From Snodgrassella sp. (GTDB taxonomy: Bacteria; Pseudomonadota; Gammaproteobacteria; Burkholderiales; Neisseriaceae), in the NCBI GenBank assembly GCA_024103515.1, contig JAGGIK010000011.1, forward strand, positions 1,956 to 46,757: a stretch of 44,802 nt of DNA, written 5' to 3'. The notes beneath the pieces are model-generated. The model saw nothing but the letters and a program-made list of their open reading frames with translations. It was not told where the DNA came from and did not search any database. The position numbers were made by a program, and so were the translations under genes. How positions within the stretch are numbered: the stretch's first letter is position 1; every line of letters starts with the position of its first letter. Positions 13,036 through 24,212 of this stretch are shown one piece after another.

Positions 13036-13625
13036 GTAACTACTCCCTAAAATAGTATAACCTAAAAGTAGCAAATTCTCTTTAATTAACCCCCAGAGGA
13101 TTTAAACGTCAAATCAATAACACCATAGCAATTCGTAGCTATTTTATAAGAAGCTGAAGTTGGTATGTTCAATAAAAATTTGCGGTATATATGGCATGGG
13201 GAATTCAACTTTCTATCAATGATGTGATCAATACGATGGTATGGAAACCTCGGATAATAAACGCTTAAAGTAACTAAAAGCTGAAAACCGCAAGCTTAAA
13301 CAAATGTTTATTGAGCTGAGTTTAAAAGCTTAGCTTCAGGAGCAATCGTAAATAAATTTTAGTATCCACTCAGGCAGGTAAAGCTTGGGCTATGCAACCG
13401 CAAGAAAGATCTTTTGCTACAATTACCATTGGGCTGCGCTATCGTTGGCTTAAGCCGCTGTGCTGACGATGATCAAGCTAAGTTAGCGGATGATGCAGTG
13501 ATGATGGCGGTACTCAGTGTGTTACGGACAAGCATTGACGCTGGGACTAGCCCAAGTGTTTTAAACGCATCAGCAAGCTCGACTATAAATACGACCATAA
13601 ACGGGCTTAACGGCTATATTTTTGT
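13036..13625 (+). mobile_element. IS-A remnant (IS3 family), 5' half
   Basis: The same element as the nearly full copy at 23016-24212, in the opposite orientation. It begins with the terminal sequence GTAACTACTCCCTAAAATAG and includes the end of orfA (ENRKLKQMFIELSLKA-like, about 13285-13330, with stops) and the start of orfB (PLGCAIVGLSRCADD, about 13428). It then breaks off after GGCTTAACGGCTATATT. The leucine-zipper-like orfA end and the VGLSR motif are typical of IS3-family (IS407-like) elements. Frames are interrupted, so it is dead. Confidence 0.7.
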
Positions 13626-13811
13626 GAAACATTTTGTATCATTGGTATTTCGTTGAGTGCAGAATGACTTTTGCATTCAAATAGCAATAAAATGTGGAGT
13701 AGCACAATTAATTAATGCATTTTTATCTTACTTCTTTGACCTTCATTTGATTATGTATATTTACAAAAGCTTTTAACTCTCATATTTCAATCCAAATTTA
13801 TATGCATAAAC

Positions 13812-13837
13812 AAAGCCAGCCTGATAAAGCTGGCTTT
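13812..13837 (-). terminator. Terminator downstream of gloA
   Basis: A 9-bp perfect stem (AAAGCCAGC / GCTGGCTTT) with an 8-base loop. T-rich sequence follows on the minus strand. It lies about 60 bases past the gloA stop. Confidence 0.65.
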
Positions 13838-13899
13838 AATCTAATTTATGCTGAAAAATAAGCGATTAAAATTTTTGATGGCCCCTTATTTTAAAATAT

Positions 13900-14283
13900 T
13901 CATGATTTTTGAATTAATTCAATTTTATATCCGTCAGGATCTTCAATAAAAGCGATCACTGTTGTACCATGCTGCATCGGACCCGCTTCACGGATAACCT
14001 TTTGTCCTTTAGCTCGAACAGCATCACAGGCTGCATAAATATCATCCACTTCAATGGCTATATGCCCATAGGCATTGCCCAGATCATAGTTGTGCTTATC
14101 CCAGTTATAGGTCAGTTCCAATACAGTATGATCTGCTTCTTCGCCATAACCGACAAAGGCCAGAGTAAAACGACCGCTAGGAAAATCTTCACGACGTAAT
14201 AATTTCATGCCCACTACATCCTGATAAAAAGCCAGCGATTTATCCAGATCAGTGACACGCAGCATAGTATGTAATATTCTCAT
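13900..14283 (-). CDS. gloA: Lactoylglutathione lyase (glyoxalase I)
   Basis: Isomerises the methylglyoxal-glutathione hemithioacetal to S-lactoylglutathione, the first step of methylglyoxal detoxification. From the ATG at 14283 the protein has 127 residues, close to bacterial GloA. All four metal ligands are in their usual places: H5, E56 (VLELTYNW), H74 (GHIAIEVDD) and E122 (GYKIELI). The start is set by AAGGA seven bases upstream; an in-frame TTG 15 bases earlier has no such site. It is an intact single gene in the middle of IS remnants, with its own terminator. Confidence 0.95.
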
Positions 14284-14650
14284 GGAGTATTCCTTCAATT
14301 TTTATTTATGCTAAAGGATAACATACAACATTCTACAAAAACGAGCTCGATACGATGCGATTCCATTCCCAATAATTATTTAATTTTTATTTCAAAATAC
14401 TGATGTGAGCAGAAAAATCATTACTAAAGTTAATCATGCTGATCTCAAACATCTATTAAACTTTTCACCACTCACCTAAATTGTTAAATTCGACTTATGC
14501 CGACACTATTCACCAAATCACTTATAAATAATAATCTATTACCAATTAACAATTTAAACATCAATCAAAGATTAGCGATATAATCAAAAGAGAACTACAG
14601 ATGTCCTCATCACCTAAAATTGAAACTATCCCAAACTTAGTACAAGACTC
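14284..14650. other. Non-coding stretch upstream of gloA
   Basis: An AT-rich interval that should contain the gloA promoter, but I could not pick a convincing pair of hexamers. No gene or known RNA was recognised. The right side runs into the end of the next IS-A remnant. Confidence 0.4.
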
Positions 14651-15071
14651 AAGTAGAAAATAATACTGCTTGTTTTAGGATTCGATATTCAATCGGCGTC
14701 ATATTATTTAATGCTTGATGAGCTCTTTAGGGGTAATAAATGCTTAGCCATTCTTCGGCTATTTTCATTTCTTACCCCAGATTATTAAATAGGTATCAAT
14801 CCAGTACTTTGGTGCGATAAATACAATTAAATCATTCAATATACTCGTTTTGCTATCGGCAACTAGGTTGAATATCATTTGGGGTGATACCATGTGATTT
14901 TGCTCAATAAGTGAACGTATTTGCGGTAAATTCCGTTCCATTATCCACGCGTATTTTGAGAGGATAAGCATGATATTCGGCCAGGTTATCCAGATAACGG
15001 CTCATCCTGCTAGCCGGCAAACTGACCGCCATATCAATGCCTAACGCTTCACGATTAAAGTCATCGATGAC
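14651..15071 (-). mobile_element. IS-A remnant (IS3 family), 3' half
   Basis: The minus strand encodes broken pieces of the DDE integrase domain: VIDDFNREALGIDMAVSLPA-like, then IRVDNG(T/A)EF (second catalytic Asp) and the QNEYIE region (catalytic Glu). It is near-identical over long stretches to 23050-23470. It stops just after the sequence GTCATCGATGAC, where the end of the IS-B mini-element begins. This suggests that IS-B or a derivative inserted into this copy. Confidence 0.7.
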
Positions 15072-15471
15072 TGGAATGGCAACACCTATTCAAACAACAA
15101 AATTAAGAGGTAGCCGTTTGTTAAATTCCACCTCAGACAAATAGCCCAACGACGAAAGGTCAGAATTTCAAGGAATTTGATAATCAATTGCTAGATAAGT
15201 GTATTAATACATTTAATATACAGCGTTCACTCAGTAAAAAGGGATGTCCGTATGACAATGCAGTGGCAGAAGCAACATTTAACAGCATGAAAACTGGATT
15301 GGTTAAAGGGGAAAATTCATGACAACTGGATAATTAGAACAAGCCTTTGCGGCTTATGCTTATTGGTACAATCATAAACGGTTACATTCGTCGTTAGGCT
15401 ATTTGCCTGAGGTAGAATTTAACAAACGGCTACCTCTTAATTTTGTTGTTTGAATAGGTGTTGCCTTTCCA
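15072..15471 (+). mobile_element. IS-B mini-element with two inverted copies of the same end
   Basis: A 400-base segment bounded by long inverted repeats, about 88 bases each (15071-15158 and 15385-15472) with 5 mismatches by eye. Each outer end reads TGGAAWGGCAACACC, a TG...CA type terminus usual for IS3-family elements. The interior (about 15150-15440, plus strand) encodes the end of an IS3-family orfB, including SLSKKGCPYDNAVAEATFNS with the catalytic Glu region, followed by a stop and frame changes. A normal IS would have different left and right ends. Here the 3' end occurs twice, once inverted. Confidence 0.65.
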
Positions 15472-15657
15472 GAGTCGATTGAGTATATAATTTGGTGACA
15501 GAACCAATTGTTATTTTAAATGGCAAATATACAATAATTAGGATGGGATCAATATTTAATAATTTAATATAAATAATAAAAAGTTAATATTAAACTATTA
15601 TTAGTAATTTTTTATTGTATAATAGAGATAATTTTAATTAAATATTTTAAATAGAAT

Positions 15658-17211
15658 ATGATTAAAAAGAAAAAGTTGGTCTTATATACTTTATCTCTAT
15701 ATTTTACATCTTTGGTTTGTCTATTATTTGGTTTAGGTTATACGGAAAATTGGGATAATAAAAATATTATCACTGGAATAATTTTTTTCTGTTGTTATTT
15801 AACAGGTGCAGCAAATAGATATACATTAATTTTTTTATTAATATCTTTCTCAATTTTATCGCTGTATTTTCCTAGTGGTTTAATTTATGGTAAGCCAACT
15901 GTTGAAGTGTTGAATCCTTTGCTACAAACCAATAAGTTTGAGGTAATAGGCTATCTTTTGGCTTTAAGGTATTATTTATTAATACCAATCCTTTTTATAG
16001 GTATTCAATACTTGATATATCATATAACTAAAAATACTCAAGGTAAAAAATCAATAACTACAATTATATTATTTTGTATTTTTTATATTCTGAGTTTATT
16101 TGGGATGTCGTTTGCTAATCAAAATATAAATGAGGAAGCTCCGCTAAAAAATATAATATTGGCTTTCAAAACAATACAGAAACAAAAAGCAGAGATAAAA
16201 AAATATATTGGAGATGATAAAAATATTCAAATAAATTTAATTGATAATCATGATGATACAGAAGTTAGAGTAGTCATTATTGGTGAATCTGTGAGAAAAG
16301 ATTATTTATCCGTTTATGGCTATCCTTTAAACACTACTCCATACCTTAAAACCGCAAAAGGAATATTCATTGATGGATTAATAGCAGCCGCTTCCAACAC
16401 TCAATTATCTTTGAGCAGAACTTTATTCAAAACTATGCCCAACGAAAATAGAATAGATTGGGGTATCAATTTTGTTTCTTTGGCTAATAAAGCAGGATAT
16501 GAGACCTATTGGATAAGTAATCAAGGTATTTCAGAATATGGTGATGATATATTCTACGCATTGGCACACTCAACTAATCAGGCTCATTTTTTTAAGAAAG
16601 GAAACTATTTATCTAGTGCTACAGATGACGAAAAAATTTTACCTATTTTAACAAAAGTTGTTCACAGTAATATTAAAAATAAGGTGATTTTTATTCATAT
16701 GATGGGCTCGCATGAACCCGTGTGTTATAGATTAGGCAAATTTCAGTCTAGTTTTCAAATTCACAACGAAGCAGACTGTTATGCAGCAACAATTGAAAAA
16801 CTAGATCTATTTGTAAAAAAAATAACCGATATTCTTAAGAATAAAAAATATAAATTAATGTACTTTTCTGATCATGGTTTGTCTGTGGAAAAAAAGCGAA
16901 TAATCCATTCTGCAGATATATATGAAGTATATCAGGTGCCTTTGTTTTATTTAGATTCAGAAGCAAGGGAACATATTCTGTTAAAGAAAAAAATCAGTAG
17001 TATGAATCTAATAGATTTGTATTCAAATTTTATTAATATAAGAACAAATTTTACCAATAAAAAATATAGTTTTTATTCGATTGCAGAATTGGAAGATAAC
17101 CTTGATCCTCTGGTTTATTGGAAAAATTATAAGCATCTTTCAAGCATAAAAAATAAACAACCTCCAATTACTGATATTAATGTTTCTAGAAAGAAAAGCG
17201 TTAAGGAATAA
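15658..17211 (+). CDS. Phosphoethanolamine transferase, EptA/LPS type
   Basis: An inner-membrane enzyme that probably moves phosphoethanolamine from phosphatidylethanolamine to LPS (lipid A or core) or another surface glycan on the periplasmic side. 517 residues: four or five membrane segments (within about 8-150), then a sulfatase-fold domain. Catalytic features are visible: GES at 209-211 with the following SVYGYPLNTTPYL, nucleophile Thr in SNTQLS (T248), H352 in GSHEP, D405-H406 in FSDHG, and H417. Base composition is far more AT-rich than in the core genes, and decayed IS-A/IS-B lie on both sides, suggesting transfer. The exact acceptor cannot be told from sequence. EptA, EptB, Cpt and Lpt-6 types remain possible. 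Confidence 0.88.
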   Translation: MIKKKKLVLYTLSLYFTSLVCLLFGLGYTENWDNKNIITGIIFFCCYLTGAANRYTLIFLLISFSILSLYFPSGLIYGKPTVEVLNPLLQTNKFEVIGYLLALRYYLLIPILFIGIQYLIYHITKNTQGKKSITTIILFCIFYILSLFGMSFANQNINEEAPLKNIILAFKTIQKQKAEIKKYIGDDKNIQINLIDNHDDTEVRVVIIGESVRKDYLSVYGYPLNTTPYLKTAKGIFIDGLIAAASNTQLSLSRTLFKTMPNENRIDWGINFVSLANKAGYETYWISNQGISEYGDDIFYALAHSTNQAHFFKKGNYLSSATDDEKILPILTKVVHSNIKNKVIFIHMMGSHEPVCYRLGKFQSSFQIHNEADCYAATIEKLDLFVKKITDILKNKKYKLMYFSDHGLSVEKKRIIHSADIYEVYQVPLFYLDSEAREHILLKKKISSMNLIDLYSNFINIRTNFTNKKYSFYSIAELEDNLDPLVYWKNYKHLSSIKNKQPPITDINVSRKKSVKE

Positions 17212-17220
17212 GAAAATTGT

Positions 17221-17580
17221 ACATACCCCATAGTTAGCACAAAACTGATGTAAAAATTATACAGCTTGTTTGAGTGTTTAATATTCAATCAGCATCATTT
17301 TATTTAGTGCTTTATGGGTTTTTCGGTATTATAATTATTAGCCACTTTTCAGTTACTTTTCTTGCTTGTTCCAAGATTAGTAAACAGATACAAATCCAAT
17401 TTTCTGCTCTATATGCAAGGTTAAATCGTTTGAGATAGCTATGTTAATCTGGATGTCTGGTTGAATATAGTCTATGGTTGTCTCATGTGATTTTGCCTTG
17501 TTAGTGAACTTATTCTCAGTAAGTTCCGGTTCATTGTCTACACGCATTTTTAGTGGGTAATCACAACATGGAAACTTAAA
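17221..17580 (-). mobile_element. IS-A remnant (IS3 family), 3' end
   Basis: A more diverged copy of the 3' end of the element at 23016-24212. It starts ACCCCATAGTTAGCACAAA (compare ACTCCATAGTCAGCACAAA at 23018). On the minus strand it encodes pieces such as MRVDNEPELTENKF and SHETTIDYIQPD, matching IRVDNGAEFTGNTF and SHGITLDDIQPG of the better copy. Non-functional. It separates the phosphoethanolamine transferase from the following glycan module. Confidence 0.65.
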
Positions 17581-17744: not shown

Positions 17745-19175
17745 GTGAATAAGTCATGCCATCCTCTTATAGTGGATTTAGATGGAACATTAATTCTGAC
17801 TGATTCATTACATGAAACGTTAATAGTCTTAATTAAAACCCAACCTTTTGCAATATTTAAATTGCTAAAAGCTTATTTGCAAGGTAAAGCAGCATTTAAA
17901 AAGTATGTTTATGAACAAGTAGGCTATGATGTAGAACAAATGCCTTATCGACATGAACTTGTGGAATATATCAAGCAGGAAAGAGAGCATGGAAGGAAAG
18001 TTTTTCTGGCAACAGCCGCCTATAAAGGGATAGCTGTAAAAACAGCTGAATATCTGCAATGCTTTGATGGCGTTATTGCAACTGATAATAAACATAATTT
18101 GAAAGGAATTCATAAGCTTAAAGCTATTCAGCAGAATTTTGGCCAAGATTTTATTTATGCGGGTGATAGTAGTGCTGATCTGGTAATTTGGCAGAATTCA
18201 TGTGGTGCTATTGTAGTAGGAAACAAGGTGAAAAAATTAGCTCAAAAGTTAGAGCAATCTAATATACCTGTTGTAAAACAATGGGATAATTCAGCATTCA
18301 GTTTGGTCGTCTGGATGAAAGCTATACGCCTGCATCAGTGGTTAAAAAACATTCTGCTATTTGTTCCTTTACTAATAGCATTCCAATTTTATGATTTTCC
18401 GAACCTTTTTTTAACATTTATTGCTTTTATTTCTTTTTCTTTAGGTGCATCTGCGACCTATATTCTTAATGATTTATGGGATTTGCAAAATGATCGTGCT
18501 CATAACAACAAAAAATTTCGACCTTTTGCAGCGGGAAAGTTATCTATTGCACAGGGTATAACAGCGAGTTCATTGCTATTAATGAGCGCTTGTTTGATTG
18601 CTATTTATGTTTCTTGGTTTTTTCTAGGCATATTCTTATTATATTTATTAATCACGACTTTATATAGCTTTAGATTAAAGCAAGTTATATTAATGGATAT
18701 TATTGTTTTGTCCGTATTGTATACCATTAGAATTATAGCTGGAGGTATTGTTACGAGTATCAGTCTGAGTTATTCACTTCTGGCTTTTTCTGTGCTGATT
18801 TTTTTAAGTTTAGCCACTGTTAAACGTTGTGCAGAATTAGTAGCAATGCCTGATGAGGTAATAACCATAACAGGAAGAGGGTATATTAAATCTGATTTGG
18901 ATGTTCTCTGGCCTTTAGGTGTTAGCACTTATATTGGCGCTATAATTGTATTTGGTCTTTATATCAATGCTCCCGATACGATTATTCATTATAGCAAACC
19001 AGCATTATTATGGATTGTACAGCTTTTCTTGATTTATTTAATAGGCAATTTATGGATGGTGACTAGACGCGGTCTGATGCATGATGACCCAATTATTTAT
19101 TTTATTCAGGATAAAAAAAGCTTGATTATATTGGCGTTGATTACTTTTGTTATATCAATAGCCCGTTTTTTATAA
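17745..19175 (+). CDS. HAD phosphatase-UbiA prenyltransferase fusion (polyprenyl-phosphate phosphoribosyltransferase-like)
   Basis: Probably makes a polyprenyl-phosphate-linked pentose: the UbiA part would transfer 5-phosphoribose from PRPP to a polyprenyl phosphate, and the HAD part would remove the 5-phosphate. 476 residues from the GTG at 17745, which has GGGGA five bases upstream. Residues 1-180 are a HAD domain with DLDGTL (D11, D13) and GDSSAD (141-146). Residues 190-476 are a UbiA-type membrane domain with about eight or nine spans. It carries NDLWDLQNDRAH (242-253) and KKFRPFAAG, close to the NDVRDVEADR..KRFRPIAAG motif of mycobacterial DPPR synthase Rv3806c as I recall it. First gene of a four-gene AT-rich unit; 21 bases separate it from the next. 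The phosphoribosyl role is inferred from motif similarity. Confidence 0.85.
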   Translation: MNKSCHPLIVDLDGTLILTDSLHETLIVLIKTQPFAIFKLLKAYLQGKAAFKKYVYEQVGYDVEQMPYRHELVEYIKQEREHGRKVFLATAAYKGIAVKTAEYLQCFDGVIATDNKHNLKGIHKLKAIQQNFGQDFIYAGDSSADLVIWQNSCGAIVVGNKVKKLAQKLEQSNIPVVKQWDNSAFSLVVWMKAIRLHQWLKNILLFVPLLIAFQFYDFPNLFLTFIAFISFSLGASATYILNDLWDLQNDRAHNNKKFRPFAAGKLSIAQGITASSLLLMSACLIAIYVSWFFLGIFLLYLLITTLYSFRLKQVILMDIIVLSVLYTIRIIAGGIVTSISLSYSLLAFSVLIFLSLATVKRCAELVAMPDEVITITGRGYIKSDLDVLWPLGVSTYIGAIIVFGLYINAPDTIIHYSKPALLWIVQLFLIYLIGNLWMVTRRGLMHDDPIIYFIQDKKSLIILALITFVISIARFL

Positions 19176-19196
19176 ATGTGAGTTAAAGGAATTACA

Positions 19197-19571
19197 GTGA
19201 ATATAATAACTTATTTGCTGGCAGTTACTAGTGTTACTTTAAATGCTTTTGCTCAAATAGCATTACGCAAAACCATGCAGTCCATTGGAGCAATGCCGCA
19301 GGGGATATATGATTGCTTGCATTTCGGTGGTCAATTACTTATTAATATTTGGTTTTTGACCGGTATGAGTTTATATGCAGTAAGCATTGGCTTGTGGATG
19401 GCTGTACTAGGTAAGGTAGAGGTAAGTCTAGCTTATCCTTTGTTGTCTATTGGTTATATTATTACGGCTTTTATTGGCTATTTTTTCTTACATGAAAATG
19501 TTAATTTAATGCGTATTATTGGCTTGGCTACTATTTGTGTAGGAATAATAATTATTTCTAGGAGTGTATAA
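19197..19571 (+). CDS. SMR/ArnE-like four-helix membrane protein, possible lipid-linked sugar flippase
   Basis: A 124-residue, very hydrophobic protein with four membrane segments, of the small multidrug resistance/EamA type that includes the ArnE/ArnF undecaprenyl-phosphate-aminoarabinose flippase subunits. Visible hallmarks are FAQIALRK near the N-terminus and VEVSLAYPLLSIGYIITA in the third-fourth segment region. The start is GTG at 19197 with AAAGGA seven bases upstream. It lies between the HAD-UbiA gene and the epimerase gene, with gaps of 21 bases and 1 base. From context it most likely flips, or helps flip, the lipid-linked sugar made by the neighbours. A stand-alone drug exporter is less likely. 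Confidence 0.75.
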   Translation: MNIITYLLAVTSVTLNAFAQIALRKTMQSIGAMPQGIYDCLHFGGQLLINIWFLTGMSLYAVSIGLWMAVLGKVEVSLAYPLLSIGYIITAFIGYFFLHENVNLMRIIGLATICVGIIIISRSV

Positions 19572-19572
19572 A

Positions 19573-20547
19573 TTGCGCCATATTATTACTGGAGGAAGTG
19601 GCTTTACCGGTCAGATACTTGCTCGAAAATTATTGGAAGCTGGTAATGAAGTTGTTAATTTTGATCTGAAAAATTATACGGATAAGGAATTAGATAAGAA
19701 AAGTCAATATGTTTATGGTGATATTCGGTCAAGAGAAGATATCAAAAAATTAAACCTGCGTGCTGATGATGTGGTCTACCATTTAGCTGCGCGACAATTT
19801 GCCGATGCTGTTCCAAAACGTAATCGTGATGATTGGTTTTTTGAAGTGAATGTCAATGGTACCCGCAATATTTTGCAGGAAATGGTAGAAAATGACGTTA
19901 CTCGAATGGTTTTCTTCTCAACTGATATGACTTACGGCATGGCTAGTACTTGCCCAGTTAGCACTGATCATCCGCAAAATCCTTTGGGACCATATGGTCG
20001 TAGTAAGGTTGAGGCAGAAAAATTAATTCGAGGTTATCAGGATCTAAACGCGACAATATTTCGTCCGCGATTAATTACTGGAGCCGGACGTTTAGGTGTC
20101 TTAGGTAAGTTATTTCGTCTTATCGCTTTAAATTTACCTGTTCCGATGATAGGTAATGGCATGAATCACTATCAGATGGTCAGTGTAGAAGATTGTGTTT
20201 CTGCAGCAATGCTTGCTTGGCAAAAAGATTTTCCTCGTGAAACCTATAATTTAGGATCTTTTCAACCGCCCACGACTAAAGAACTATTGCAAGCCGTAAT
20301 CAAGCATGGTTGTTCTAAATCTTTTGTTGTGCCTGTTCCTTCTGGTTTGATTAAACCAGTTTTGTCTGGGTTAGATAAAATCGGTTTAACACTACTTTAT
20401 CCTGAGCAGTTTGCGATTGCAGATCAGAATATTTTGCTGGACTGTAATAAAACTATTCAAGAACTTGGCTGGGCACCTTCATGTTCGGATATCGATGCAA
20501 TGTGTGCGGCTTACGATAATTTTATGAATATTAAGAAAAACCCATGA
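19573..20547 (+). CDS. NAD(P)-dependent sugar epimerase/dehydratase family protein
   Basis: An extended short-chain dehydrogenase of the nucleotide-sugar epimerase type. From the TTG at 19573 (AGGAG eight bases upstream) it has 324 residues. An in-frame GTG at 19564 would overlap the previous gene and lacks a well-placed binding site. The Rossmann motif GGSGFTG is at residues 7-13, HLAAR near 70-74, and the catalytic pair Y141/K145 in GPYGRSK. The partner Ser is in FFSTDMTYG. The substrate is not readable. In this setting it could act on the polyprenyl-phosphate pentose or on a nucleotide sugar. Its last four bases (ATGA) overlap the next gene. Confidence 0.85.
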   Translation: MRHIITGGSGFTGQILARKLLEAGNEVVNFDLKNYTDKELDKKSQYVYGDIRSREDIKKLNLRADDVVYHLAARQFADAVPKRNRDDWFFEVNVNGTRNILQEMVENDVTRMVFFSTDMTYGMASTCPVSTDHPQNPLGPYGRSKVEAEKLIRGYQDLNATIFRPRLITGAGRLGVLGKLFRLIALNLPVPMIGNGMNHYQMVSVEDCVSAAMLAWQKDFPRETYNLGSFQPPTTKELLQAVIKHGCSKSFVVPVPSGLIKPVLSGLDKIGLTLLYPEQFAIADQNILLDCNKTIQELGWAPSCSDIDAMCAAYDNFMNIKKNP

Positions 20548-22865
20548 ATCAGCGAACAATATCTTCCTCTCAAGCAATTTTATTTTCTGTATTATCTGCT
20601 CTTACTATTGTAGTTATATGTTGCCTATTTCATAACAATTTTTTTTGTGTTGATGATAGTGAATATGAAATGCTCGGTTTTCTAAGACAAATCGGTCATA
20701 TATGGATCAATGGTTCAATTCCTTTCATTGTGGACTCAATGTATTTGGGTGGCAACGAAATGATTGATTTGGGCAAAGGAATATTTTTACCACAAAATAT
20801 TTTGGTTTCTCTGATTGCTTCTAAATTTAATTATATTCAGTTACCAGGGATAATATTAGCTTTTATCAATTTAGTTCTGGTTTGTCTGTCTGCTTTGTCA
20901 ATAGCAAAGACCTTTAAGCTGCGCAACTCTTACGCCTATGCATTTGCAAGTTTAGCAACAATTCAGCCTATTTTTCTATATTACTATCTTGGTGCATGGT
21001 GGAATGCCGGTAATGGACAAGCATGGGCAATGGTGAGTATTGCTACTTTTCTGTTACTAAAAAGTAATTATAATGTAAAAAATATTATTATAAATTTTGT
21101 ATCGGTAGTTTTTTTAATGTCTGCAGGTTGGCCTCATGGGATAATTGGGTATGCAGCTTTCGTTTTGGTCACACAATTTTTTGAATTAACGTATCAACGT
21201 AATTGGAAAAAGAATATATTTTTAATTGTACCAAGTTTATTGGCTTTTATTTTTTCTTTGCCAATTTATTCAGAATACATTTATTCACATGATTTAATTA
21301 ATCGTATTAGTGGTTTTTACAGTGATCAAAGAAGATTGACGCCTTCTTGGTCAAGTATTGTTTTAGGATTTTTTCCGGCTTCTTATGATTTCATGAATAC
21401 TTCGGGATATAAAATGATTTACTTCCCGATTGGGTTTTCGACTCTATTTATTCCTTTGGCGCTATGTTATCGTAAAATAAACTTATTGTGGCAAAAAGAT
21501 GCCAATCTTAAATGGCTAGTGATGTTAATTTTTGGCTTTTTCATGTTAACTCAAATGCCAGGACAATTTGGGCCTTTACGCTGGCCTTTTCGTTTTTTAC
21601 CATTTATTTGTTTATTTATCAGTCTGACAGTATTTTATATTTTAGAAAATGCTCCTACTATCATTATGAAAGGTGTAGTGCTAAGTAGGACAGCTTATAT
21701 AAGTTTATATATTTTTTTAGCCGGCCTATTATTTTTAATACCGTTATATATGGGATTTGATATATTCGGATTAACATTAATATTACTTCTATTATTATTT
21801 TTGATTGAAAGGGAGTTATTTGATCTAAAGAAAAGTGTGCTAGCCAATTTTAATAAAAATTATTTTATAATTATAATATGCACTTTTTGTTTGGTTTCTT
21901 TTAATTCATTGGGTACACATCCAATATATTTATTATTACAAATATTCTCTGTGTTACTGCTTTTAATTTGTCCGGTGGTGATTAATCGAAAGAGCCAATT
22001 TGGATTGAGTTTGTTGAATTTTGTCACATTAGTAATAATGTTAAATGGTATGCCCACTATCGGTGGTCTATATGGGTATGAAATTAAATTATCAGACAGT
22101 ATTCAGCGTCCAAATAATATTAATCTGCAAGGTTATGTTCTTTCTTTACCTATGAATCTCATATTAACTGAATCTAAGCAATTAAGTGATGCATTTTCTG
22201 CTCAGTTTGGTATCTATGATATTAAATCTGTAAATGGATATTCTCCTGTTGGTAATAAAAGGTTGGAAGCCATACTGCCTGTTCATAAAAGTGCTCATGG
22301 TGTGTTTTCTTCAAATGAAACTTTAAAAAATATTTTGAGTAAAGGCGATAATTTCGATGTTTGTCAGGCAATTCTAATGCGTATTAGTACTGTCATTGTC
22401 AATAAGGTTGATTATGACAAATTTAAAGATAATTTTAGTCGATGTGGTTATACTCAGGTACAGGTAGCTGATTATCGTCAAAATTTGTATGTTTCTTTAC
22501 CCTTGTCACAGACAAACGGTTGGGAAAATAATTTACCTTCTGCTTTTCCTGCTATAAAAGGTATAGATGTTGTTTCACATAAGAATAATGTCGATCTGAT
22601 TAATATTCCTGCTCATAATGAAGCGTTAACTTTAATTTTTCCACGCTTGTGGTGGTATGGTTATACTGCAAAAATCAATGGCCAATCATTGCCCGTTACT
22701 TCTGATAAATCTGGATTGTTGGTACAGGTAAATGTGCCACCTTCAGCAACAGGGATTTTGAAATTAAGTTATTTTCCTGTTACTTGGCGCTATGTGTGGT
22801 TTTTACCTTTACTAGCACTAGCAGGTCTGGGCGTTTTGGTATTCCGCTATAGAGTAAAAAAGTAA
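20544..22865 (+). CDS. Large multi-spanning membrane protein, GT-C/YfhO-like glycosyltransferase candidate
   Basis: A 773-residue protein with about a dozen membrane segments. After the first span, an extracytoplasmic loop has an acidic motif (FFCVDDSEYEMLG, about residues 33-45), as in GT-C transferases that use lipid-linked sugars. The central part is hydrophobic. From about residue 520 there is a mostly soluble domain, then a beta-rich piece (WWYGYTAKINGQSLPVTSD) and a last membrane segment with a basic end (VFRYRVKK), as in YfhO-like proteins. It overlaps the epimerase gene by four bases. It is the likely transferase of the module, moving the flipped furanose to an acceptor. Family assignment rests on topology and context, not on a clear signature. 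Confidence 0.65.
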   Translation: MNQRTISSSQAILFSVLSALTIVVICCLFHNNFFCVDDSEYEMLGFLRQIGHIWINGSIPFIVDSMYLGGNEMIDLGKGIFLPQNILVSLIASKFNYIQLPGIILAFINLVLVCLSALSIAKTFKLRNSYAYAFASLATIQPIFLYYYLGAWWNAGNGQAWAMVSIATFLLLKSNYNVKNIIINFVSVVFLMSAGWPHGIIGYAAFVLVTQFFELTYQRNWKKNIFLIVPSLLAFIFSLPIYSEYIYSHDLINRISGFYSDQRRLTPSWSSIVLGFFPASYDFMNTSGYKMIYFPIGFSTLFIPLALCYRKINLLWQKDANLKWLVMLIFGFFMLTQMPGQFGPLRWPFRFLPFICLFISLTVFYILENAPTIIMKGVVLSRTAYISLYIFLAGLLFLIPLYMGFDIFGLTLILLLLLFLIERELFDLKKSVLANFNKNYFIIIICTFCLVSFNSLGTHPIYLLLQIFSVLLLLICPVVINRKSQFGLSLLNFVTLVIMLNGMPTIGGLYGYEIKLSDSIQRPNNINLQGYVLSLPMNLILTESKQLSDAFSAQFGIYDIKSVNGYSPVGNKRLEAILPVHKSAHGVFSSNETLKNILSKGDNFDVCQAILMRISTVIVNKVDYDKFKDNFSRCGYTQVQVADYRQNLYVSLPLSQTNGWENNLPSAFPAIKGIDVVSHKNNVDLINIPAHNEALTLIFPRLWWYGYTAKINGQSLPVTSDKSGLLVQVNVPPSATGILKLSYFPVTWRYVWFLPLLALAGLGVLVFRYRVKK

Positions 22866-22932: not shown

Positions 22933-22967
22933 AATGCACTTTAATTTTTGATTAAGGTGCATTTTTT
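22933..22967 (+). terminator. Terminator of the glycan module
   Basis: A 12-bp stem with one mismatch (AATGCACTTTAA / TTAAGGTGCATT), a 7-base loop and a T run. It lies about 70 bases past the stop of the 773-residue gene. Confidence 0.8.
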
Positions 22968-23015
22968 ATTGTGATTTTTTTATAGAAAATTTTATTTTTA
23001 AATATATAAAGTGTG

Positions 23016-24212
23016 AATACTCCATAGTCAGCACAAATCTGATGTAGAAAATCATGTTGCTTGTTTTAGGGTTTTATACTCAATCGGCGTCATATTATTT
23101 AGTGCTTGATGAGGTCTTTCGGTGTTATAAACTGTTAGCCATTCTTCGGTTATTTTTATTTCTTACCTAGGTTATTAAGGTTATTAAATAGATAAAGATC
23201 CAGTATTTCTGTGCGATAGCTACGATTAAGTCGTTCAATATACTCGTTTTGCTATGGCCTGCCTGGTTGAATATCATCTAGGGTGATACCATGTGATTTT
23301 GCCCAATAAGTGAACGTATTCCCGGTAAATTCCGCTCCATTATCCACGCGTATTTTGCGTGGATAAGCATGATATTCAGCCAATTAATCCAAATAACGGC
23401 TCACCTACCAGCCGGTAAACTGACCGCAATATCAATGCCTAACGCCTTACGATTAAAGTCATCGATGACATTGAGGGTTCTAAACCTACGTCGATTGTGA
23501 CTGCTGTCGCGCATCAAAGCCATTGACCAGTATTCACCTTGTTTACTGGGTACCAATGGTTTTTCTGGACTTCGTGGAGCAATACGCTGCTAACGCTTTA
23601 CCCTGAGATTATGCTTTAATTAACAATATAGCCGTTAAACCTGTTTATGATTGCATTGATAGCCAAGCTTACTGATGCGGTTAAAACACTTGGAAAAGTC
23701 CCAGCGTCAATGCCTATCCGTGATCGCACTGGGTACCGACATCATCAAATAATCATCCTGTAATTTGGGTTGATAATAGTAAGCACAGCGGCTTAAGCCA
23801 ACAATAGCGCAGTTGATGGCAATCGTAACATTATGGCTTTGTTGTAGTTGCACTCCCAAGCTTTACTTGCCTGGGTGGGTACTAAGACTTTGTTATGGTT
23901 TCCTTCTGAAGCTAGGATTGTAAACTTAGTTCAGCCAACATTTGCTCAAGCTTATGGTTTTCAGCTTCCCGTTGCTTTAAGCGTTTGCTATCTGAGGTTT
24001 CCATACCAGCGTATTGATCACACCATTGATAAAAAATTGAATTCCCCATACCGTATTTACGGCAAATTTTTAATGGCCATACCAATTTTAGCTGCTTATA
24101 AAATAGCTACGAATTGATAGGGCGTGTTATTTATTTGATGTTTAAATCCGCTATGGGTTATTAAAGAGAATTTACTACTTTTATGCTGTATTATTTTAGG
24201 GGATAGTTACAA
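23016..24212 (-). mobile_element. IS-A, nearly full-length decayed IS3-family element
   Basis: About 1.2 kb, the normal size for an IS3-family element, oriented to the minus strand. The 5' end is near 24212 (GGGGATAGTTACAAAGG). orfA lies at about 24100-23920, with a conserved RLKQREAENHKLEQMLAELS-like segment. The orfB core includes EYWSMALMRDS..NRRRFRTLNVIDDFNRKALGID (first Asp), IRVDNGAEFTGN (second Asp) and QNEYIERLNRSYR (Glu), typical of the IS407-like branch. Stops and frameshifts interrupt both frames, so it cannot move by itself. Parts of the same element occur at 13036, 14651, 17221 and 40468. Confidence 0.8.

Follow-up and report, generated by a model that had tools for sequence, protein, structure and literature searches.

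A predicted lipid-linked pentofuranose unit with a YfhO-like end protein in the bee gut symbiont Snodgrassella

The stretch of 44,802 nucleotides analysed here (the window, contig JAGGIK010000011.1) belongs to a Snodgrassella genome from the bee gut and carries on its plus strand, at positions 17745-22865, an operon-like unit of four genes. They encode a HAD-UbiA fusion, a four-helix SMR protein, an extended epimerase of the short-chain dehydrogenase/reductase (SDR) type and a many-spanning protein of 773 amino acids (aa). All open reading frames (ORFs) were confirmed, and the gene spacing, the motifs and the acidic first loop quoted in an earlier reading of the letters alone (the sequence-only reading) were found in the ORFs and their translations. 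We consider it probable, at roughly two chances in three, that the unit makes and uses a lipid-linked pentofuranose in five steps. The UbiA domain would transfer 5-phosphoribose from phosphoribosyl pyrophosphate (PRPP) to undecaprenyl phosphate (undP) at the cytoplasmic side, and the fused HAD domain would strip the 5-phosphate, giving undP-ribofuranose (undP-Ribf). The epimerase would then invert one ring carbon, by kinship C3, to yield undP-xylofuranose (undP-Xylf), the SMR protein would flip the lipid-linked sugar, and the YfhO-like fourth protein, as a glycosyltransferase (GT) of the GT-C type, would attach it in the periplasm to a surface acceptor. The first two predicted steps rest on strong homology to a biochemically tested enzyme, the putative third on homology to a genetically tested one, and the fourth and fifth would follow from family and gene context.

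The chemistry of this pathway is already published; new here are a bee-symbiont version with a YfhO-like end protein and its naturally reduced forms. For Citrobacter youngae O1/O2 a HAD-UbiA protein, a four-helix flippase and an SDR epimerase were characterised by Kelly et al. (2024, PMC11127046). ORF15 (HAD-UbiA) produces farnesyl-P-Ribf, ORF14 is a four-helix ArnE-like protein termed MATE in that paper, ORF12 (GT136) is the transferase for the sugar, and ORF13, the SDR epimerase, alone makes the O2 side chain Xylf instead of Ribf. The window shares with this three-component system (ORF12-15) the HAD fused to a UbiA-type phosphoribosyltransferase with its active-site positions intact, the adjacent gene of an SMR/ArnE-like flippase, the single SDR epimerase and a large membrane protein as predicted GT. 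As in the Xylf sub-type, the epimerase is of the ORF13 type, and no DprE1 or DprE2 was recognised among the window ORFs. The end proteins differ, being GT136/DUF7024 there and YfhO-like in the window.

The HAD-UbiA protein scored 560 bits with model NF006088 (cut-off 351), and both PF12710 and PF01040 were above their Pfam cut-offs, bearing out the phosphatase domain of its own that the sequence-only reading had proposed. Among other UbiA models the phosphoribosyltransferases came first with 127 (NF008978, DPPRS), 123 and 108 bits, all under their own cut-offs, compared to 51 bits for a general prenyltransferase model, 27 for the heme-O and 26 (25.8) for the 4-hydroxybenzoate enzyme. With a seven-sequence profile the best solved structure in the PDB was the decaprenyl-phosphate phosphoribosyltransferase DPPRS (8j8j, 134.7 bits), with 8j8k at 102.6 bits; a different UbiA relative came next with 35.9 bits. 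Kinship to this enzyme rather than to quinone or heme enzymes had been set beforehand as a test, and the scores support placing the UbiA domain with the polyprenyl-phosphate phosphoribosyltransferases. The motifs NDLWDLQNDRAH and KKFRPFAAG are present. Mapping through the locus of C. youngae CCUG 30791 (L100) equated D18, D248, D251, R366 and E369 of ORF15 with D11, D243, D246, R361 and E364 of the window protein, and all 9 aligned rows agree at these positions; D13 likewise matches an ORF15 position. According to PMC11127046, most of the six equivalent ORF15 positions were targets of mutation, and the residue named 'D247' there is N in L100 and in every aligned row.

Two enteric loci connect the window to the published pathway. 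The CCUG 30791 locus holds HAD-UbiA, SMR and two remnants of an epimerase, separated by an ORF that by eye resembles a transposase. Its GT lies in two pieces and starts with D31, E34 and Y35 as in PMC11127046. Since the epimerase is present as remnants only and the GT has this pattern, we take the locus as probably O1-type. A DNA search of 5,426 E. coli genomes recovered the series HAD-UbiA, SMR, epimerase in 6, one record being labelled O99:H6. Gene order is the same in the window, the O99:H6 locus and, with its reduced epimerase, CCUG 30791. In the O99:H6 locus a convergent DUF7024 gene follows, whose product shares 57-60% identity with the two GT fragments of C. youngae; the fourth gene of the window is co-directional. 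Identity between the window and the enteric proteins is 38% for HAD-UbiA of the O99 locus (38-39% with C. youngae included), 68% and 62% for the SMR proteins of E. coli and C. youngae, respectively, and 60% for the E. coli epimerase; between the fourth protein of the window and the GT of the O99 locus no kinship was seen.

The ArnE/F-like nature of the SMR protein and the SDR nature of the epimerase were both borne out. The SMR protein exceeded the cut-offs of PF00893 (24.3 bits) and PF00892 (33.7 bits) and reached 51 bits with the ArnF model NF002816, under its cut-off of 99. Its role in flipping is predicted from family and context, and PMC11127046 did not test flipping by its four-helix protein. 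The epimerase matched PF01370 with 127 bits and contains GGSGFTG and Y-x3-K (Y144 and K148, numbered from 19564). The C. youngae remnants are 64% (33 aa) and 59% (41 aa) identical to the window epimerase, and 91% (34 aa) and 75% (40 aa) to that of the E. coli O99 locus. In an 11-row tree the window epimerase clustered with its enteric counterpart (fork 82/97, not starred). As it falls with the enteric/ORF13 branch and the remnants match both enzymes, xylofuranose via C3 epimerisation is our best guess for its product. The idea in the sequence-only reading that a missing DprE1 implies new chemistry was not supported: conversion of Ribf to Xylf by a single SDR epimerase is described in PMC11127046, and no DprE1 would be needed, because the window epimerase matches the E. 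coli O99 enzyme, which in turn matches the C. youngae remnants. The SMR tree also unites Snodgrassella and the enterics (98/97). A mosaic origin, with flippase and epimerase nearer to the enterics than HAD-UbiA, is only suggested, because that grouping is not rejected for HAD-UbiA (approximately unbiased test, p 0.109).

Relatives of the epimerase were found in 6 of 369 genomes of the class, our own included (E <= 1e-60), and in 15 plasmid records (E <= 1e-30). Seven loci carry relatives of 42-51% identity (L110, L144, L151-L155); SMR adjoins the epimerase in 5 of them, and HAD-UbiA lies in the fetched stretch of 3. In L153 a DprE1-like gene (349 bits), a DprE2-like gene (153 bits, cut-off 250), SMR and epimerase occur all together. 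In Roseibium album (L110:7986-12353) HAD-UbiA, a DprE1-like gene (319 bits), SMR and epimerase were observed, with no DprE2-like ORF found in the fetched stretch; the SDR may replace DprE2 there. Neither DprE1-like gene reaches the cut-off of 500 of the DprE1 model. Two others of the seven (L151:7012-8476 and L154:6717-8135) hold an adjacent pair of SMR and ORF13-like epimerase, and HAD-UbiA is absent from their fetched stretches; such pairs may act on other lipid-linked sugars, or the synthase may be encoded elsewhere.

For the 773-aa protein no match was obtained with Pfam or NCBIfam models, PF09586 (YfhO) included, nor with PDB sequences up to E 1. Among 369 genomes of the class our own alone contained it, as did 5 of 14 genomes of the genus; close homologues were seen only in Snodgrassella, and no viral relatives were found among 219 pattern stretches. 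A plasmid search gave two Rhodococcus homologues (E 2e-6 and 1e-5, 42-44% query coverage), 96% identical to each other and one of them annotated as YfhO family. Both adjoin a GtrA flippase and lie near a GT, and they score 18.7 and 20.8 bits with PF09586 (cut-off 28.5). Profile comparison with these two proteins reached an hhalign probability of 98.4 (E 8e-15) over 650 columns, in agreement with the YfhO likeness considered in the sequence-only reading. Membership in GT136 was rejected (BLAST E 0.14 and hhalign probability 0.1 against a GT136-like protein), and no relation was found to one other GT type located beside HAD-UbiA (hhalign probability 0.2). These results support a distant YfhO-like relative rather than a GT136 enzyme, and because of the missing relation to GT136 we do not file the unit as a GT136 system. 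The acidic first loop reads VDDSEYE after the first hydrophobic segment; DD-x-x-[YF]-E is present there in 4 of 4 aligned rows, and this place may correspond to that of the catalytic acid in many GT-C enzymes. In the CsbB-GtcA-YfhO glycosylation of lipoteichoic acid a polyprenyl-phosphate-linked sugar, a small flippase and a YfhO-type protein act together, and the donor is made by a cytoplasmic GT from a nucleotide sugar. The likeness to this system lies in the GtrA neighbours of the Rhodococcus homologues; the window differs in its predicted UbiA/PRPP route to the donor.

Other pentofuranose systems share the first enzyme. The mycobacterial decaprenyl-phosphate-arabinose (DPA) pathway (Rv3806c, phosphatase, DprE1/DprE2, Emb/Aft), as described in PMC11127046, has in common with the window the UbiA protein of DPPR-synthase type, a lipid-phosphate-linked pentofuranose donor and its predicted end use by GT-C enzymes. 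It differs by the window's fused HAD phosphatase of another family and single SDR epimerase, and the DprE1 oxidase and DprE2 reductase present at the mycobacterial and Pseudomonas loci were not recognised in the window. Arabinosylation of Pseudomonas pilin (PSPA7_6245-6251, TfpW) likewise relies on an enzyme resembling DPPRS to provide a surface pentofuranose (PMC12369383, PMC11127046), with the P. aeruginosa enzyme lacking a fused HAD according to PMC11127046. Near the module no pilin or TfpW gene was recognised by eye, no family search for them having been made.

Of 14 genomes of the genus, the same 5 carry the fourth protein and a HAD-UbiA that scores above cut-off, and in all 5 the two belong to one unit. 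Two genomes (G000 and G005) have all four genes intact. G012 has its epimerase divided between two ORFs, possibly by a draft error, and its fourth protein is an open frame of 722 aa, 42% identical and internally shorter. In G007 and G013 exactly SMR and epimerase are missing, a spacer of 317 bases separates HAD-UbiA from the fourth gene, and no remnant of the missing genes was matched in it better than E 0.1. The expectation that the four genes stay together was thus borne out in 2 genomes, with a split epimerase in 1, the middle two genes missing in 2 and no unit found in 9; the two-gene form also contradicts the description of the unit as minimal. The ratio of nonsynonymous to synonymous change (dN/dS) between G007 and G013 was 0.075 for HAD-UbiA and 0.29 for the fourth protein; the two genes that come next gave 0.067 and 0.061. 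Constraint on HAD-UbiA appears equal to that on these neighbours, and weaker on the fourth protein; as both values are well under 1, the two proteins appear to be used without the other two genes. A weak SMR match elsewhere was found in 11 of the 14 genomes; such proteins might supply flipping in the reduced strains, or may be ordinary drug-efflux SMRs.

Comparison of intact and reduced units suggests possible strain-to-strain switching towards unepimerised ribofuranose. A broader proposal remains tentative, with the odds rather against it: the genus would switch its surface sugar by gain and loss of the middle genes, with xylofuranose in full-module strains and ribofuranose both in a split-epimerase strain and in two-gene strains, the latter borrowing a flippase, and the YfhO-like protein would be the first of a family of pentofuranosyltransferases separate from GT136. 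Few bacterial surface glycans are known to contain pentofuranoses. If our interpretation is true, the surface of a honey-bee gut symbiont would carry a furanose open to gain, loss or change between strains; it would also suggest that a dedicated flippase is dispensable and that the donor-making enzyme pairs with several different end transferases. One-step gene knockouts work in S. alvi wkB2 (PMC11389375). Among the papers listed by literature searches none tied Snodgrassella to such a sugar, which is weak evidence of absence.

A census covered the best 80 of at least 519 HAD-UbiA relatives from a genome scan, using fetched stretches around each. Using thresholds of 40 bits for SMR-like proteins, blastp E <= 1e-10 with the L153 proteins for DprE-like ORFs and 200 bits for a strong epimerase match, SMR-like proteins were found in 31 stretches and DprE1-like and/or DprE2-like ORFs in 24 (three with DprE2-like only, perhaps other SDRs). 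SMR and DprE1-like occurred together in 1, a strong epimerase match in 2 and a fourth protein of the window type in 2, which are both from Snodgrassella. The membrane proteins after HAD-UbiA in 11 loci start very differently from one another, and two groups of them were compared with the window protein as given above. This diversity would fit one donor module with exchangeable transferases.

Several results weigh against the proposed pathway. No marker sought was found in 24 of the 80 census stretches; only 8 of these 24 are shorter than 12 kb, and short contigs therefore do not explain them. The unit was not found in 9 of the 14 genus genomes, and the AlphaFold model of the fourth protein (4 sequences) was unusable, with a mean predicted local distance difference test score (pLDDT) of 37.8. 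The link from the window epimerase to ORF13 runs via the remnants in a C. youngae locus taken as O1-type. Furthermore, C3 specificity need not hold throughout the wider epimerase family, which may go beyond C3 epimerisation, because relatives of 42-44% identity occur with a DprE1-like gene alone (L110) or with DprE1-like and DprE2-like genes together (L153). These two loci favour a rival in which donor pathway and transfer are the same and the sugar is not xylofuranose, formed by C2 epimerisation (arabinofuranose), perhaps with an oxidase elsewhere, or being ribofuranose itself. In our own genome (86% complete) DprE1 was sought with PF04030 only, giving one doubtful oxidase, and DprE2 was not searched genome-wide. 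The oxidase (L120:1471-2883, contig C12) is a flavin adenine dinucleotide (FAD) enzyme of the lactone-oxidase/DprE1 group with some DprE1 likeness. However, it lies on another contig away from the module, and has by eye a signal-like N-terminus. The DprE1 model gives it 86.8 bits, compared with 92.8 from a general FAD-oxidase model and with 349 and 319 for the DprE1-like genes beside HAD-UbiA; we judge it unlikely to be DprE1. As the window epimerase groups with the enteric one, the annotation of the fetched E. coli O99:H6 stretch shows no DprE-like gene, and one epimerase suffices for Xylf according to PMC11127046, we regard a different sugar as rather unlikely.

The 773-aa protein might instead be a transporter or export protein, the module serving a transferase elsewhere, and the missing Pfam match, the missing relation to the two GT types compared and the unusable structure model agree with this. 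Against it stand the YfhO-like homology across 650 columns, the place of the protein in the HAD-UbiA unit of all carriers and its retention in the two genomes that lack both flippase and epimerase, and we consider a role other than transferase clearly improbable. PF04932 (O-antigen ligase/PglL-type) does not discriminate the carriers, as it is present in 14 of 14 genus genomes. A role of the UbiA domain as quinone or heme prenyltransferase, with an accidental neighbourhood, would draw on its superfamily membership only; model and structure scores favour DPPRS, the genome has a separate UbiA (201 bits, contig C16), and linkage with flippase and epimerase recurs in other bacteria. We rejected this role on the scores, and it is barely conceivable. 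The production and use of a lipid-linked pentofuranose remains our preferred interpretation of the unit, whose features are summarized in Table 1.

Table 1. Features of the four-gene unit and its flanks (window positions).
Feature	Positions	Strand	Assignment
Repeat upstream of the unit	17214..17563		By eye a degraded insertion sequence; 74% to 23008-23369; no family search for insertion sequences made
HAD-UbiA fusion, 476 aa	17745..19175	+	HAD, predicted phosphoribose phosphatase; UbiA, predicted polyprenyl-phosphate phosphoribosyltransferase
SMR/ArnF-like four-helix protein, 124 aa	19197..19571	+	Predicted flippase; PF00893 and PF00892 matches
Extended SDR epimerase, ORF13 branch	19573..20547	+	Predicted undP-Ribf to undP-Xylf; PF01370, homology
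YfhO-like many-spanning protein, 773 aa	20544..22865	+	Predicted GT-C pentofuranosyltransferase; profile comparison
Terminator-like hairpin closing the unit	22933..22963	+	14-pair stem, then T-rich stretch
Repeat downstream of the unit	23008..24125		By eye a degraded insertion sequence; no family search for insertion sequences made

The start of HAD-UbiA was taken as GTG 17745, the longest ORF beginning at TTG 17724. For the epimerase TTG 19573 was preferred to the GTG 19564 of the ORF list, as favoured by AGGAG 8 bases upstream and by the E. coli homologue beginning at the equivalent residue. Spacing along the unit is 21, 1 and -4 bases (a 4-base overlap), the second junction becoming an overlap of 8 bases (-8) from GTG 19564. 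Of the single terminator claimed earlier, the hairpin itself was found; terminator-like sites in the region were 3 compared to 3.3 expected in shuffles, so that the call is based on the length of the stem and the place of the hairpin. Promoter-like sites in the region were not above chance (27 found, 30.8 expected).

By eye the module lies outside any O-antigen cluster. The nearest envelope-type gene in the window, with other neighbours judged by eye, lies about 0.5 kb upstream and encodes a sulfatase-family membrane protein of 517 aa (15658-17211), phosphoethanolamine-transferase-like by NF028537 (86 bits, cut-off 500); the module may or may not be tied to lipid A or LPS. More copies or pieces of the flanking repeat were found within 13046-15071; the copies around the module and this gene may have mobilised or trapped both. 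An inverted repeat at 15071-15156 and 15387-15472 has arms of 86 nucleotides, 95% complementary and 230 nucleotides apart. Concerning an empty site, contigs of G008, G003 and G004 end too soon, G009 offers only about 1.5 kb and G011 matches one side only. In G002 (L162:2515-4517) and G010 (L167:822-2824) the module site holds another two-gene unit. The L162 unit, for which no PADLOC match was obtained, encodes an RNA ligase (PF09414) together with an AAA_33 protein that matches HD weakly, and the L167 ORFs have the same lengths and start.

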